From Cupriavidus necator N-1 (GTDB lineage Bacteria > Pseudomonadota > Gammaproteobacteria > Burkholderiales > Burkholderiaceae), in NCBI RefSeq assembly GCF_000219215.1, contig NC_015726.1:2108001-2172000 (forward strand): a stretch of 64,000 nt of DNA, given 5' to 3'. The notes beneath the pieces were generated by a model, which worked only from the letters and a program-made list of their open reading frames with translations, was not told the DNA's origin and did no database searches. Numbering within the stretch: position 1 is the stretch's first letter; the number at the start of each line of letters is the position of its first letter. Both the position numbers and the translations under genes were made by a program. Shown here piece after piece: positions 31,610 through 39,579 of this stretch.

Positions 31610-32275
31610 CTATTGGCTCTCGATCCACTGAATCGCGAAGCGCATCAGCTCCTTGCCGTTGGGAATATCCAGCTTTTCCTTGATGTTGGCCTGATGTGCC
31701 TCGATGGTCTTGACGCTGCGATTCAGCTTCGCGGCGATCTGGCGGGTGCTGAAGCCGAGTCCGATCAGGTGCAGGACTTCGAATTCCCGTTCCGAAAGGC
31801 TCGCGATCGAGCCCGTCGGTTTTTTTTGAGGAGCCTTCAGGGCCCGCGCCAGCTTTTCATGCATGGCGGCGCTCAGATAGACATTGCCTGCCAGCACCTC
31901 GCGGATGGCGTTCACAATATGCTCCGTGGCCTCGAGTTTCATCAGATACCCGTTGGCGCCTGCCCGCAGTGCGCGTTCGGCAAACAGCGTTTCGTCATGC
32001 ATGCTGAGGACAAGGATTGCCAGCTTTGGATAGTGTTGCCGAAGCGTCTTGACAAGATCCAGGCCGGAATTCGAGTGCAGGCTGAGGTCCACAATGGCCA
32101 TGTCAGGCTGGCAGGTCATCAACGCCAGCGCATCTTCGGCACTGCTGGCCGCACAGCAGACGTGCAGGTCCTCATGCAGATTCAGCATTTGGCTTAACCC
32201 CTCCCGGATGATGGGGTGGTCATCCACGATCAGGATCTGGGTCGCGCGGCCCGGGCTAGATGACTGCTGTTGCAT
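31610..32275 (-). CDS. NarL/FixJ-type response regulator
   Basis: 221 residues from the ATG at 32275. The receiver domain has the acidic pair D18-D19, phosphoacceptor D63 (MAIVDLSLHS) and the switch Ser/Lys region, followed by a LuxR-type HTH (SLSEREFEVLHLIGLGFSTR, then VKTIEAHQANIKEKL). Its start lies 20 nt inside the end of the upstream histidine kinase gene, so the two are translationally coupled. Targets are unknown; the adjacent exported repeat protein is one candidate. Confidence 0.93.
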   Translation of the reverse strand: MQQQSSSPGRATQILIVDDHPIIREGLSQMLNLHEDLHVCCAASSAEDALALMTCQPDMAIVDLSLHSNSGLDLVKTLRQHYPKLAILVLSMHDETLFAERALRAGANGYLMKLEATEHIVNAIREVLAGNVYLSAAMHEKLARALKAPQKKPTGSIASLSEREFEVLHLIGLGFSTRQIAAKLNRSVKTIEAHQANIKEKLDIPNGKELMRFAIQWIESQ

Positions 32276-33926
32276 GGCCCGGACTCTCTGGTATCGGATA
32301 GCTGATGGCAACCGTGGTGCCACCCAGAGCATTGCGGGTGATCGTGCAGGAGCCGCCCAGGAGGCTTGCCCGGTGACGCAGGTTGTGAAGACCCAGCCCC
32401 GAAGCACGCTCCATTTTTTCCGGGTCGACCCCCACCCCATCGTCACTGATGGAAAGGCGCTGCATTCCGCCTTCGCGCTCGAGGTCGATCCCGATGTGGT
32501 GTCCCTGGCTATATTTCAGCGCATTATTCACGGCTTCCTGTGCTGCACGGTAAAGGTTGATCTGCATCGGCGGATCCAGCAAGTCCACGTCTGACCCGAT
32601 GCGCAGCGTGCAGTCTATGCCGTCCAGTGCGCAGGTCGTCTGCGCCAGGCCTTGCAGTGCGACCGCAAGGCCACCCGATTCCATGGCGACCGGGTCCAGG
32701 CCATGGGCAATCTTGCGAGTCATCAAGGACGCCTGATTCACCAGTCCGACGATGGTAGCCGCGTCCGCGGCAGCCGGGTGGCCATACTTCTGCAGTGTTT
32801 GATTCAAGGTGGCGCAGTAGAAGCCCAGGCTGGTGAGGTGCTGCCCGAGGCCGTCATGCAGTTCCCGGCCGATGAGCCTCTGCTGCTGATCGCCGATCCG
32901 GATCAGTTCCGCTTCCAGCAGACGACGACGCGCCATCTCCTGCTTCAGCTCATGGTTTGCCCGCTCCAGGTCCCGGGTTCGCTCCTGCACGCGCCGCTCC
33001 AGTTCGATGTGGGATGCCTGCAGCAGGCGATGAACGCGCTTCTCCTGGGCATGTGCCGCCACCAGCAGCAGCCCGGTTACTGCCACGACGTTCGCGAAGG
33101 CGCACCATCTCACAAGGCTATCCACTGGAGACTCGGCGGCAAAGGGACCGGTGCCGTTCGTGGTGCCCCAGATGGCCACGATCGAGACCATCAGAGTTGC
33201 GAAGGTGGTGCCCAGATGATCGAAGCGCAGAGCCGCCCAGATAATGAACGGAAGAATCGCCAGGGCTGAAGGATAGTAGCCGTGCCCGGCAAGTTCGGGA
33301 GCGCCGAAGATGAGGTAACTTGCCCAGAGGATGGCAACCGCCAGTCCGCACGCTTCCACGGCCTGCTTTGCGGAGTGCACAGGGCCAGGACTCGCAAGCA
33401 AGCTGAGCAGGGGCGGCGCCACCACCAGCACCCCCATCATGTCACCGAGCCACCATTCCAGGACTGCTTTGCCGTACTCGGAAGCCGACACCCGGCCCGC
33501 TTCAAAGAGGGCGGTCGCGCCAATCAGGGCACTCACTGCCGTGCTGACCGCCGCAGCCAGGATGACGAAGGCCAACACGTCCCTGATGCGGTCGAGGGTG
33601 ATCTGGAATCGGGCCACGCGCGTCAACAACAACGTGGCCGTCAGGGCTGCAGCCGTCGCGCCGAAGCCAATCAGCGCCGCCATTGGCAGTGGCACGCCGA
33701 CCGACATATTGGCAAGAAAGGAGCCAATGGCAATTCCGGGGGCGGCTGCGAAGCCCATGACAAGGAGCGCAACGAGGGCGATGCCGCTGGAAGGCCACAC
33801 CAGAGACACTGCACCGCCCACTACTGCATAAGCCAGTCCCAGCCTTGCACTTGCGAAATACGCCAAAGCGACAAATCCGGTATAGACGAAAAGTCTGAGC
33901 CTTAAATTGCGCGGGATAATAAACAT
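32256..33926 (-). CDS. MASE1-domain sensor histidine kinase
   Basis: 556 residues from the ATG at 33926. About eight hydrophobic segments form an N-terminal MASE1 sensor (YFASARLGLAYAVVGGAVSLVWPSSGIALVALL, in parts). A coiled coil (LERRVQERTRDLERANHELK) leads into a HisKA_3 dimerisation domain with the phospho-His in RELHDGLGQHL, then an HATPase with N-box NALKYSQG, DDGVGVD and GLGLHNLRHRA. A GTG at 33962 would add 12 residues. MASE1 ligands are not known. It pairs with the following response regulator. Confidence 0.92.
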   Translation of the reverse strand: MFIIPRNLRLRLFVYTGFVALAYFASARLGLAYAVVGGAVSLVWPSSGIALVALLVMGFAAAPGIAIGSFLANMSVGVPLPMAALIGFGATAAALTATLLLTRVARFQITLDRIRDVLAFVILAAAVSTAVSALIGATALFEAGRVSASEYGKAVLEWWLGDMMGVLVVAPPLLSLLASPGPVHSAKQAVEACGLAVAILWASYLIFGAPELAGHGYYPSALAILPFIIWAALRFDHLGTTFATLMVSIVAIWGTTNGTGPFAAESPVDSLVRWCAFANVVAVTGLLLVAAHAQEKRVHRLLQASHIELERRVQERTRDLERANHELKQEMARRRLLEAELIRIGDQQQRLIGRELHDGLGQHLTSLGFYCATLNQTLQKYGHPAAADAATIVGLVNQASLMTRKIAHGLDPVAMESGGLAVALQGLAQTTCALDGIDCTLRIGSDVDLLDPPMQINLYRAAQEAVNNALKYSQGHHIGIDLEREGGMQRLSISDDGVGVDPEKMERASGLGLHNLRHRASLLGGSCTITRNALGGTTVAISYPIPESPGHATAVI

Positions 33927-34197
33927 TGTTCGCTTCAAATCCTCGGGAACAGACACTGTCACAGCCAGTCATTTCTATCGTTAAGCGGAATGACGACACT
34001 CTTGCGAAAGTGAATGTTCCATGCAGCTGCGGCAAATCACGAGCCTGCACCGAATCGATGCAAGGCGAAGTGCTGCAAAACCATGGTGCCGCAACACTAC
34101 TATGAATCTACTTCAGAACTCCCCCGCGCGGTAAGCGTGGCCGGACGGATTCGATCGCCACCGTGCAGTAATGCAGGGTGAGTCTTCCTTGCCGACC

Positions 34198-34218
34198 GGC
34201 TAGGGCAATCCCCTAGCC
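34198..34218. promoter_or_regulatory. Perfect 8-bp inverted repeat, candidate operator
   Basis: GGCTAGGG-CAATC-CCCTAGCC in the 436-bp region between the divergent histidine kinase gene and the exported repeat-protein gene. The rest of that region has no gene and is AT-richer near the repeat-protein start. No T-run follows, so an operator or protein-binding site is more likely than a terminator. Confidence 0.55.
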
Positions 34219-34362
34219 TCTTTTCGGAAAAAAGCCTTATTCATATGCTTGCTGTCAGGGCCTACATTTCATTGCACTTGTGCGAAGTTGCGACCCTCAA
34301 GCTGAAGCGAAAGAAGAATCGTTTCGGTGTTTTTGCAACGACCTGAAATGGAGGTAAGAAAA

Positions 34363-34581
34363 ATGATAAAGACAGTCATACTGCTCGCTGCGGCGAGTGC
34401 GGCGCTTAGTGCCGGAATTGCCTATGCCGGCATCGGGGCGCGGGATGTCTACACTGACGGCGCCAGCACGATGGGGCCGCGAGACCCATATTCCGATGGG
34501 GGGAAGACCACAAAATTTGACGTCTATTCAGATGGGGCGAAAGTCACGGATAGACGCGACGCGTTCACCGATGGCGCATGA
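34363..34581 (+). CDS. Small exported protein with four DxYSDG repeats
   Basis: 72 residues from the ATG at 34363, with GGAGG nine bases upstream. A signal peptide (about residues 1-22, ending AYA) is followed by a mature part of about 50 residues made of four repeats: DVYTDGA (28-34), DPYSDGG (41-47), DVYSDGA (53-59), DAFTDGA (66-72), spaced 12-13 residues apart with basic linkers. The consensus D-x-(Y/F)-(S/T)-D-G-(A/G) places two Asp per repeat, which could bind cations; that is inference. It has no cysteine. I recall similar repeats in hypothetical proteins of Burkholderiaceae but no known function. A strong terminator follows, so it is a single-gene transcript. Confidence 0.85.
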   Translation: MIKTVILLAAASAALSAGIAYAGIGARDVYTDGASTMGPRDPYSDGGKTTKFDVYSDGAKVTDRRDAFTDGA

Positions 34582-34694: not shown

Positions 34695-34728
34695 TCCCCC
34701 GAGTCACAGCCTCGGGGGATTTTTTTTG
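34695..34728 (+). terminator. Strong rho-independent terminator
   Basis: Stem TCCCCCGAG / CTCGGGGGA with a 7-nt loop, followed by nine T residues. It ends the small repeat-protein transcript, 114 bases after its stop codon. Confidence 0.9.
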
Positions 34729-37942: not shown

Positions 37943-38962
37943 TCACAGCAGGCGCTCCGCCTCCTCGATCAGGGCGGTGGGCGACAGCATGTCGCCACGC
38001 GCGAAACGCACCAGTTCGACGGATCGCACCAGCGGCGGATCGCCCGGGACGTGGGCAGTGAGCAGGTCGATGTCGTATGCCGGCCCCGCGCTGTCCGTCG
38101 CGAGCAGCACGTTCATGGCACTAAGCCGCAAATGTCTTTGCTCGATGGAAAAGCAGGAGCGTGCGTCCGCCAGGACCTCAGCCAGACATTCCAGTTGACG
38201 GTCAAGCGCCCCGGTTTCGGGGCCGAGCTGCGCAAGTTCCTGCTCGTTCGCGGCAATCTGCCCGCTCAGGTTGGCCTGCTCGCCGGGACTTGCGTCGGCA
38301 TCGCCGCCGAGCACCGAACGCATGCCGGTGCCTTGCTGCTGGAGCAGGCGCAGGCGCGCCACCAGCAGCGCCTGCTCGCGCGCGAGAACGTCGCGGCGTG
38401 ACTTGCCGGCAGCGAAACGGGCGAGACCCTCCATGCTGAACTGATCGAACATGCGCCGCACAATTTCCTCGCGCAGCGCGGCCTCGCTGCGAGCGATGAT
38501 CCTGACCTTATGATCGCCGAAACTGACGGTGGTTTGCGGCACTTCCGTGCGCATGACATCGCCTTCCAGCGCAACCCCGAGCGTGCGCCGCTCGGTCATC
38601 GCCATCCCCAGCACTGCAAACGCCTGCGGCGTATCGGGCGACTGTTCGAAGAACGCTCGCAGATCAGGAGAACGGCTGAAGGCCAGCTGCACGTCACGCG
38701 GCGTGCCGAAGAAGGCGTGAATATAGGGATCGTCACCCCATGCCTGCATGCTGGCCTCCCGCGGCGCGGGAAGACCCTGGACCAGTTCGCGCACGTAGTC
38801 CTGCGCTTGCTCGAGCGCAGGCCGAAGCCGCTGCTGGTAGCGTGATACCAGACGCAAGCGCGGATAGATCCGGGTCACGCGCTCGGTCAGCTCGGCAATC
38901 TCTTGCCTGTCGTGCGCGTGGACTTGCGCTTTGCGCCGGCGCAACCACCCCAGAAAACCCAT
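37943..38962 (-). CDS. Conserved-looking protein of unknown function, 339 aa
   Basis: I do not recognise this protein. It begins with a short basic stretch (MGFLGWLRRRK), has no signal peptide or membrane segments, and is rich in Arg, Gln, Leu and Ala with heptad-like stretches (about 185-260) that suggest coiled coils. A beta-rich middle (TVSFGDHKVRIIARSE) separates two helical parts. The ATG at 38962 has GGGAG at good spacing; one two codons upstream is too close to it. It runs in the same direction as the following duplicated-domain protein gene, 29 bases away from that gene's stop. Codon use is like the neighbours, so it is a real gene. Confidence 0.75.
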   Translation of the reverse strand: MGFLGWLRRRKAQVHAHDRQEIAELTERVTRIYPRLRLVSRYQQRLRPALEQAQDYVRELVQGLPAPREASMQAWGDDPYIHAFFGTPRDVQLAFSRSPDLRAFFEQSPDTPQAFAVLGMAMTERRTLGVALEGDVMRTEVPQTTVSFGDHKVRIIARSEAALREEIVRRMFDQFSMEGLARFAAGKSRRDVLAREQALLVARLRLLQQQGTGMRSVLGGDADASPGEQANLSGQIAANEQELAQLGPETGALDRQLECLAEVLADARSCFSIEQRHLRLSAMNVLLATDSAGPAYDIDLLTAHVPGDPPLVRSVELVRFARGDMLSPTALIEEAERLL

Positions 38963-38991
38963 CGGCATACTCCCACCCGGCGCCGCCTTAC

Positions 38992-39579
38992 TCAGCGGGC
39001 ATGCTTGGGCGTGACGGAAATGGCAAGGGCTTCGGTGTAGACGGCCTGCACCTGGTCACCGCGTCGAACCGCCTTCAGTTGCTTCGGATCCACGACATGC
39101 ACGTCCACCGTCTTGCCTCTTGGCCCTTTGAGCGTCACCATGCCGGTCTTGGCGTTGACGGCCACCACGTCGGCAGTCACCGTCACCTCGCGCCCGACCA
39201 TGCCGCCGGGCTTGGCGCCAGGAGCGGCCCGGTCGGCGGTCTCGCGTTCGGTGCTGGAGCGCATGCCACTCTGCCTGGCGAGGGTCACTGACAAGGCCTG
39301 CGTGTACTCGACCGTGACCATGTCGCCCACGCGGAGCTGCTCGAAGTTGCGCACGTCCTCGCCGACCTGTACGTCCGTGACCTTGCCCTGCTTGTTCTTG
39401 AGCGAAATGGTGCGCGTGGCGGCATCGATGGCCACCACCGTGGCGGTCGCCTTGACCGTGCCGGTGGTCTTGGTAGCCCCCACGCCCGACACCGTGTCCA
39501 CGCGAGTCTCGGGCTGTGCCAGCACCGGAAGAGTTGCCGCGGCAAGTACCGCCGCCACGATTAGCTTGCTGGGATGCAT
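38992..39579 (-). CDS. Periplasmic protein with two copies of a small beta domain
   Basis: 195 residues with a signal peptide ending LPVLAQ. The mature part contains an internal duplication: residues about 42-100 (VKATATVVAIDAATRTISLK ... VGDMVTVEYTQALSV) align with about 130-190 (VTVTADVVAVNAKTGMVTLK ... RGDQVQAVYTEALAI). Each copy looks like a small beta barrel (OB-like). The linker is polar. Function is unknown; similar exported proteins occur in Burkholderiaceae and Pseudomonas. It lies upstream of the 339-residue unknown gene and may share its transcript. Confidence 0.78.
   Translation of the reverse strand: MHPSKLIVAAVLAAATLPVLAQPETRVDTVSGVGATKTTGTVKATATVVAIDAATRTISLKNKQGKVTDVQVGEDVRNFEQLRVGDMVTVEYTQALSVTLARQSGMRSSTERETADRAAPGAKPGGMVGREVTVTADVVAVNAKTGMVTLKGPRGKTVDVHVVDPKQLKAVRRGDQVQAVYTEALAISVTPKHAR

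Follow-up and report, generated by a model that had tools for sequence, protein, structure and literature searches.

In this work, we asked what is encoded by a small gene at positions 34363-34581 (plus strand) of the window, the 64,000-nucleotide stretch of Cupriavidus necator N-1 DNA analysed here, and how it is related to the two-component signalling pair beside it. The open reading frame starts with ATG, has relatives, and encodes an exported-looking protein of 72 residues, MIKTVILLAAASAALSAGIAYA|GIGARDVYTDGASTMGPRDPYSDGGKTTKFDVYSDGAKVTDRRDAFTDGA, in which the bar marks a cut site placed by eye. The signal-peptide-like N-terminus, MIKTVILLAAASAALSAGIAYA|G, was also read by eye, with no predictor behind the call; it covers residues 1-22 (34363-34428, plus strand; AYA|G), and residues 2-16 are helical in a low-confidence AlphaFold2 model. 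Four repeat cores of the form D-x-[YF]-[ST]-D-G follow on the plus strand, DVYTDG (34444-34461), DPYSDG (34483-34500), DVYSDG (34519-34536) and DAFTDG (34558-34575); they start at residues 28, 41, 53 and 66, and all four lie inside the 50-residue mature part. The gene is preceded by the Shine-Dalgarno sequence GGAGG (34350-34354) and followed by an intrinsic terminator (34695-34719) and then eight T, both signals on the plus strand. The first-pass annotation had described an exported-looking 72-residue protein with four repeats at a spacing of 12-13 residues, its own Shine-Dalgarno sequence and its own terminator, and all of this was confirmed on the sequence. It had also stated that the protein ends exactly at the last repeat. 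This is true of the window copy, which stops at repeat 4 (34576-34581), and of five of the 15 aligned close relatives, while the other ten carry a C-terminal extension of about 12-13 residues past the last repeat.

A crude GC-based gene caller did not pick this short open reading frame, and one could argue that there is no protein gene here and that the repeats arose in a frame left open by chance. This explanation is refuted by the comparative data, and we give it practically no weight. CopQ-like relatives were found in 60 of 60 genomes of the genus. All 15 pairs of six genes had a dN/dS ratio below 1, with values of 0.18-0.43 between the window gene and five orthologues and 0.06-0.61 among those five (10 pairs). 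Moreover, more than two repeats appeared in none of 200,000 shuffles that kept the composition of the mature part, and exactly two appeared in three of them. AlphaFold2 (28 sequences) returned no fold, with a mean pLDDT of 54 and a pTM of 0.20, which is compatible with a disordered repeat peptide but is no proof of disorder; judged from this model, the window protein is probably such a peptide.

The first-pass annotation knew of no function for repeats of this kind, a statement that has to be corrected because the repeat family is already in print as CopQ/CzcJ/MmrQ. According to excerpts of the report published in 2010 (PMC2864759), CopQ, CzcJ, MmrQ, MmsQ and others of Cupriavidus metallidurans CH34 form one family, characterized by a signal sequence and by RDXXTDG repeated three to four times with fixed spacers; the genes are induced by various metals, and by BLAST the family was confined to Cupriavidus and Ralstonia. 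Some of the genes sit in cop and czc clusters (PMC2864759, PMC7563307, both in excerpts), 21 copQ homologues are given for CH34 in the accessible part of PMC7563307, and passages of the literature describe the proteins as poorly characterised. The window protein is a new member of this known but functionally obscure family. In common with the excerpted description of the CH34 proteins, it is small, has a signal sequence (by eye), RDXXTDG-type repeats at set spacing and several paralogues. The repeats agree in a relaxed form, since all four read D-x-[YF]-[ST]-D-G and two of the four the strict RDxxTDG. Unlike the CH34 genes, the window gene has no adjoining metal-resistance cluster and is paired with a MASE1/LuxR-type two-component system. 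Relatives of it carry the name CopQ in sequence records, and the pMOL30 gene in the copQ position encodes a protein identical to the window protein at 33 of 75 positions over nearly the full length; the pMOL30 record says 'hypothetical protein', and its identity as copQ was deduced from its place by copE and a CzcE-family gene.

A search of the N-1 genome gave 39 matching stretches. From a profile search, with the stretches grouped into genes by eye and a single weak match (E 0.15) set aside, the number of CopQ-like genes comes to about 26 (14 on contig C1, nine on C3, three on C2 and none on C4). Twenty own-genome proteins that were read, the window's included, have two to nine repeats by a loose pattern, and 92 pooled repeat units read mostly K-[F/R]-D-P-[Y/F]-T-D-G-A-[R/K]. 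Homologues with conserved repeats beyond close strains, which the first-pass annotation had named as a test, are thus present across the genus. Among 150 Burkholderiaceae genomes, CopQ-like genes were detected in 27, which belong to two of 25 genera (14 of the own genus and 13 of genus g24, which includes Ralstonia sp. SET104), in agreement with the published restriction to Cupriavidus and Ralstonia; the other 123 genomes gave no match at E 1e-8. Among the matches listed, no genome of the own genus or g24 was without a CopQ-like match, as judged for g24 from row order. In a wider protein search, the names listed for the best 120 of 1,133 relatives were Cupriavidus, Ralstonia and 'Burkholderiaceae bacterium 16'. 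A frame of 97 residues with equal bit score and profile span was observed in both genera (G114:C97:189380, G033:C71:76508, G191:C3:379815); from these equal scores and spans, rather than from the sequences, it looks like a recently transferred CopQ copy.

Divergently to the copQ-like gene, on the minus strand, lie a MASE1-HisKA_3-HATPase sensor kinase (32256-33962) and a receiver plus LuxR-type (GerE) response regulator (31610-32275, with an ATG start overlapping the kinase end and chosen by eye), and an HD-GYP gene is convergent, so the neighbours are those given in the first-pass annotation. In 11 out of 36 loci, copQ has both kinase and regulator as divergent neighbours; these are mostly the loci of the closest copQ copies, plus a Ralstonia one. 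Two copQ copies of 72-78% identity, one of them on a 3.8-kb contig, have no kinase or regulator, and high-scoring copQ relatives that have no kinase include L019 (3.8-kb contig), L020, L089, L092 and others. The intergenic block between kinase and copQ, with a palindrome and a TTTTCGG tail, is conserved in 11 aligned sequences, the window included. It contains the conserved element TAGGGCAATCCCCTAGCCTCTTTTCGG (34201-34227, plus strand), the proposed operator of the response regulator, within which the inner palindrome TAGGG-N5-CCCTA occupies 34201-34215 on the same strand. A search of 60 genus genomes for the 27-base element, allowing up to two mismatches, gave 22 sites spread over 21 genomes, whereas the reversed-pattern control gave 0. 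One genome (G032) has two sites and the other 20 have one each, the own genome among them, and 21 of the 22 sites have a same-strand copQ match 113-136 bp downstream. The element is absent in 39 of the 60 genomes, and therefore the unit, though widespread in the genus, is not found throughout it.

By comparing loci with and without this element, the linkage becomes clear. The kinase divergently adjoins copQ in 20 of 20 element-bearing loci other than the window (66-91% identical, three partly covered), and it is absent in 12 of 12 copQ relatives that have no element and were chosen and fetched. Furthermore, the identities of kinase and copQ to their window counterparts co-vary (Spearman 0.80, n=20). 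No HD-GYP gene lies beside copQ in any of the 20 other element-bearing loci, bar a 3% fragment in L134, which rules out the HD-GYP sensor as part of the unit; it is a local neighbour only. A LysR gene lies beside copQ in one of the same 20 loci. The earlier proposal of an output of a signalling island accordingly stands for the kinase/regulator pair, through conserved linkage and the element, and falls for the HD-GYP sensor. Neighbours that differ in every genome, the outcome against which that proposal had been set, were not what we observed, as two neighbours are conserved.

The kinase itself was detected at E ≤1e-60 in two of 25 genomes (0 of 5 in the own genus, 1 of 11 in g24 and 1 of 9 in other genera), the g24 genome with the kinase also having copQ, and in four of 66 further genomes with up to 21 candidates scored per genome; an order-wide search of 399 genomes returned the own genome only, and with up to three candidates scored per genome this is no measure of absence. 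UhpA/UhpB and MctR/MctS are among the better NCBIfam matches of the window regulator and kinase, yet they remain under the cut-offs: the UhpB model gave 108.5 of 408 bits on the kinase and the UhpA model 112.9 of 258 bits on the regulator, in both cases below the equivalog cut-off. A heavy-metal-sensor model matches the kinase weakly (18.3 of 292.55 bits). Among the papers pairing MASE1 with Cupriavidus, no title names the kinase/regulator pair.

A scan found no sigma-70 consensus promoter upstream of the copQ-like gene. The proposed -10 element is TACATT (34263-34268, plus strand), conserved in alignments and with no good -35, and it would place the palindrome centre near -67. LuxR-type regulators such as UhpA can activate from a position near -67; UhpA activates from about -64, and its partner kinase UhpB carries MASE1. 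The exact TAGGG-N5-CCCTA occurs once in the 8.48 Mb of the own genome. A large palindrome regulon was considered and rejected, because up to one mismatch gave 39 sites per strand versus 109 for the reversed-pattern control. Another copQ-like gene (C3:2507755-2508012) has one of these mismatched palindromes 86 bp upstream, a placement not separable from chance.

Kinase homologues of 75-78% identity are present in five genomes of two other Burkholderiaceae genera, g13 and g20, for which the survey of 150 family genomes gave no CopQ-like match. The element, in the broadened form TARGGCARTCCCYTAGNNNNTTTTNGG and with up to three mismatches, was found in five of five of these genomes, and a gene starts 110-146 bp past it in the g13/g20 loci, or 238 bp in L121. 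The genes behind the element are various: a DUF4148 protein in L087, divergent to the kinase (Pfam E 1.2e-6), and in L121 (E 1.2e-11), LrgA in L120, and PstS in L087, where it was identified with Pfam. L118 and L120 each have a similar PstS-like N-terminus, and L119 shares its first residues. The presence of PstS and LrgA behind the element suggests that the kinase signal need not be a metal. In L087, L118, L119 and L120, the PstS-like phosphate-binding gene comes after the regulator gene, and its position behind the element is a possible hint at the kinase signal. In Cupriavidus, locus L090 has a second element copy, after a truncated regulator and before an exported-looking ORF of 79-81 residues with no Pfam match. 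This truncated regulator (L090 4504-6698) adjoins a cyclase-like gene (by eye); the element is kept there and the following ORF is unrelated.

The segment after the element is also alike among the loci, CCTTATTCAT...GTCAGGGCATACA-T in its best conserved form, and stands at a near-equal distance except in the outer L087 tandem copy. It would mean that the promoter, beyond the palindrome alone, appears to be shared. This bears on whether the palindrome and its T run could be an RNA terminator or attenuator instead of a regulator-binding site. The stem of 8 pairs followed by TCTTTTCGG was flagged as terminator-like, and most sister-genus copies lie directly 3' of the regulator gene; a terminator is nevertheless quite improbable, as the similar promoter-like segment keeps its distance in divergent and collinear layouts alike, in 11 of the 21 sites pairing is lost at one or more of the five inner positions with the letters still largely conserved, and no plus-strand gene is apparent upstream in the window for the element to terminate. 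We return to the proposed operator, which belongs to what is new here: a dedicated two-component unit whose promoter also precedes other genes, two of them DUF4148 genes, in sister genera.

A different role within the same circuit can be imagined for the exported repeat protein, namely that of a kinase accessory which, by binding to the MASE1 sensor or by titrating its ligand, would provide feedback and not envelope protection. That kinase and copQ are linked one to one and diverge in parallel agrees with such a role, and the single element seen in each of 20 of the 21 genomes is what a closed circuit predicts. However, a two-component protein was only one of the 40 scanned neighbour genes of the paralogues, and behind the element the sister-genus kinase homologues have genes of other kinds, unrelated to copQ, which means that signalling in those genera does without this CopQ. 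We consider an accessory role improbable, and we retain the protein as an output of the pair. The specificity of the element, with one site per genome in those 20 of 21 genomes, makes the circuit testable with a single reporter and two deletions.

The occurrence of DUF4148 genes behind the element raises the relation between the two families. DUF4148 (PF13663) proteins resemble the CopQ-like ones in being small, exported, multiplied, near two-component systems (PMC7549894, in excerpts), and in two cases placed behind the same element. They differ in having no D-x-Y-T-D-G repeats and no detected homology past the signal peptide (hhalign probability 6%), and the window protein gave no PF13663 match up to E 10. 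The DUF4148 alignment (A5) was composed of 10 of 15 stretches fetched and the two element-driven DUF4148 proteins, with L103 and L105 (wrong frame picked in both), L107, L111 and L115 left out. DUF4148 was found in 89 of 150 family genomes and 15 of 25 genera, in up to 35 copies. It was also found in five of 14 own-genus genomes (1-6 copies), with none in the own genome, and in one of 13 g24 genomes. Since DUF4148 thus occurs in few genomes of the own genus and g24, and CopQ in those 27 genomes only, the exclusion of the two by genus is strong but not complete. In the parts of the published reports that were accessible, DUF4148 genes follow immediately after the genes of the metal-resistance system IrlRS and of another system like it, which was termed possibly coincidental (PMC7549894), a DUF4148 operon belongs to the genes with the strongest induction by arsenite and antimonite (PMC11719878), and passages of the literature call the proteins without known biochemical activity. 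A word search of a literature collection found no paper in which both DUF4148 and CopQ occur.

We hypothesize that CopQ-like and DUF4148 proteins are non-homologous functional equivalents, interchangeable outputs of separate stress regulators, and that an ancestral unit kept its promoter and exchanged its output (CopQ in Cupriavidus/Ralstonia; DUF4148, PstS and LrgA in the other genera). The argument is drawn from the shared promoter (in two DUF4148 loci), size, export, similar amplification and complementary distribution, and we regard such an equivalence as a serious possibility, although at somewhat less than even chances. The best reading of the element-bearing loci is that the slot behind the element can be filled by DUF4148 too. 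In many genomes of its own genera each family amounts to tens of copies, and both are tied to metals and two-component systems in the printed excerpts; a promoter shared before CopQ or DUF4148 suggests that the two serve the same purpose, and studies of one could then shed light on the other as well.

Taking both parts together, we find it rather likely that the window protein is a CopQ-like family member and at the same time serves the divergent MASE1 kinase/LuxR-type regulator as its dedicated output, and it is best read as a disordered CopQ-like envelope-stress protein. From the family membership, linkage, operator/promoter-like module and coding constraint observed here, we infer a mechanism in which a stress signal would activate the MASE1 kinase. 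The phosphorylated regulator would then dimerise on the element, the palindrome of which is about 67 bp upstream of the predicted transcription start, and would switch on a promoter that has no good -35 box. The CopQ-like protein would be exported through Sec, and its D-P-[YF]-T-D-G-A-[RK] repeats may act as a multivalent weak periplasmic binder, of cations or of an envelope partner, by which the stress would be buffered. Taken alone, the buffering step is tentative, and we hold it to be rather doubtful. The nearest published case, as far as the accessible text of PMC7380067 goes, is that of PrsQ1/PrsQ2 with AgrRS: an evolved strain loses its silver resistance when the CopQ-like prsQ1 or prsQ2 is deleted, and prsQ2 is activated by the response regulator AgrR, prsQ1 being reported there as neither AgrR-bound nor up in RNA-seq. 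The two systems are alike in having CopQ-like exported proteins, with prsQ2 as a two-component output. On the other hand, AgrR is OmpR-type and has the box ATKACANNNNTGTMAT; the window element differs from it, and this box was not found near the window gene with up to two mismatches, so that the gene was not placed in the AgrR regulon.

The silver phenotype also speaks for a narrower function, that of a strict metal buffer, in which the repeats would bind or reduce Ag, Cu and Cd via Asp and Tyr as a periplasmic sponge. PrsQ1 and PrsQ2 are needed for silver resistance in that report, the metal induction of CopQ-like genes and the place of some in cop/czc clusters point the same way, and the mature window protein has 9 Asp and 3 Tyr. 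Soft-metal ligands are scarce in the family, however: the mature parts of 118 relatives, taken from the best 120 of 1,133, contain 13 Cys, 95 His and 35 Met in 13,186 residues, and 110 of the 118 relatives have no Cys, which argues against a classical soft-metal chelator. The cation binding that the first-pass annotation put forward as possible is thus not favoured in this form, although the published family is linked to metals. No Pfam/NCBIfam metal-binding match was found for the window protein, and the Pfam calcium/metal-binding repeat families gave only a VWF-like model at E 0.67, under the cut-off. Moreover, several paralogues adjoin TetR, LysR, MarR/OsmC and ECF genes and not metal pumps. 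We conclude that a strict metal buffer is unlikely, and on residue composition direct soft-metal chelation also seems unlikely to be the whole story; a more general envelope-stress protein is preferred. Within the window, a CusF-like exported protein (38992-39579; CusF match under the Pfam cut-off) is encoded 4.4 kb from the window gene and adjoins a 341-residue protein (37943-38968) with no Pfam/NCBIfam match.

The neighbours of the own-genome paralogues were scanned as 40 genes hand-picked from 20 loci, with the pBB2-like contig loci L050 and L060 left out. DNA-binding regulators or sigma factors account for 13 of the 40, at least three of these 13 being not immediately adjacent. The neighbours include three TetR, three LysR and two MarR regulators, one of OmpR type and an ECF sigma factor; two OsmC genes, a mechanosensitive channel, an RND pump and an outer-membrane efflux protein are found as well. 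This picture suggests stress in general, although thiolase, acetyl-CoA hydrolase and other plainly metabolic genes also occur. In a control of distal genes (82 of 87 meeting the cut), four LysR, two response regulators and three HATPase were found among the matches listed (25 of 188 families), and the excess of regulators beside the paralogues is suggestive only. Near C3:1880151, the own paralogue that outside the window is most similar to the copQ-like gene, there is an IS605-type OrfB transposase gene (L068 9098-10393). At C1:1187863-1190080 (L071), two copQ-like genes, one with nine repeats, alternate with two TetR genes, as if a copQ-TetR pair had been duplicated in tandem. At C3:1746950-1747171 (L072), a copQ-like gene stands between OsmC and MarR genes in an apparent operon, which suggests a response to peroxide or electrophiles rather than to metals.
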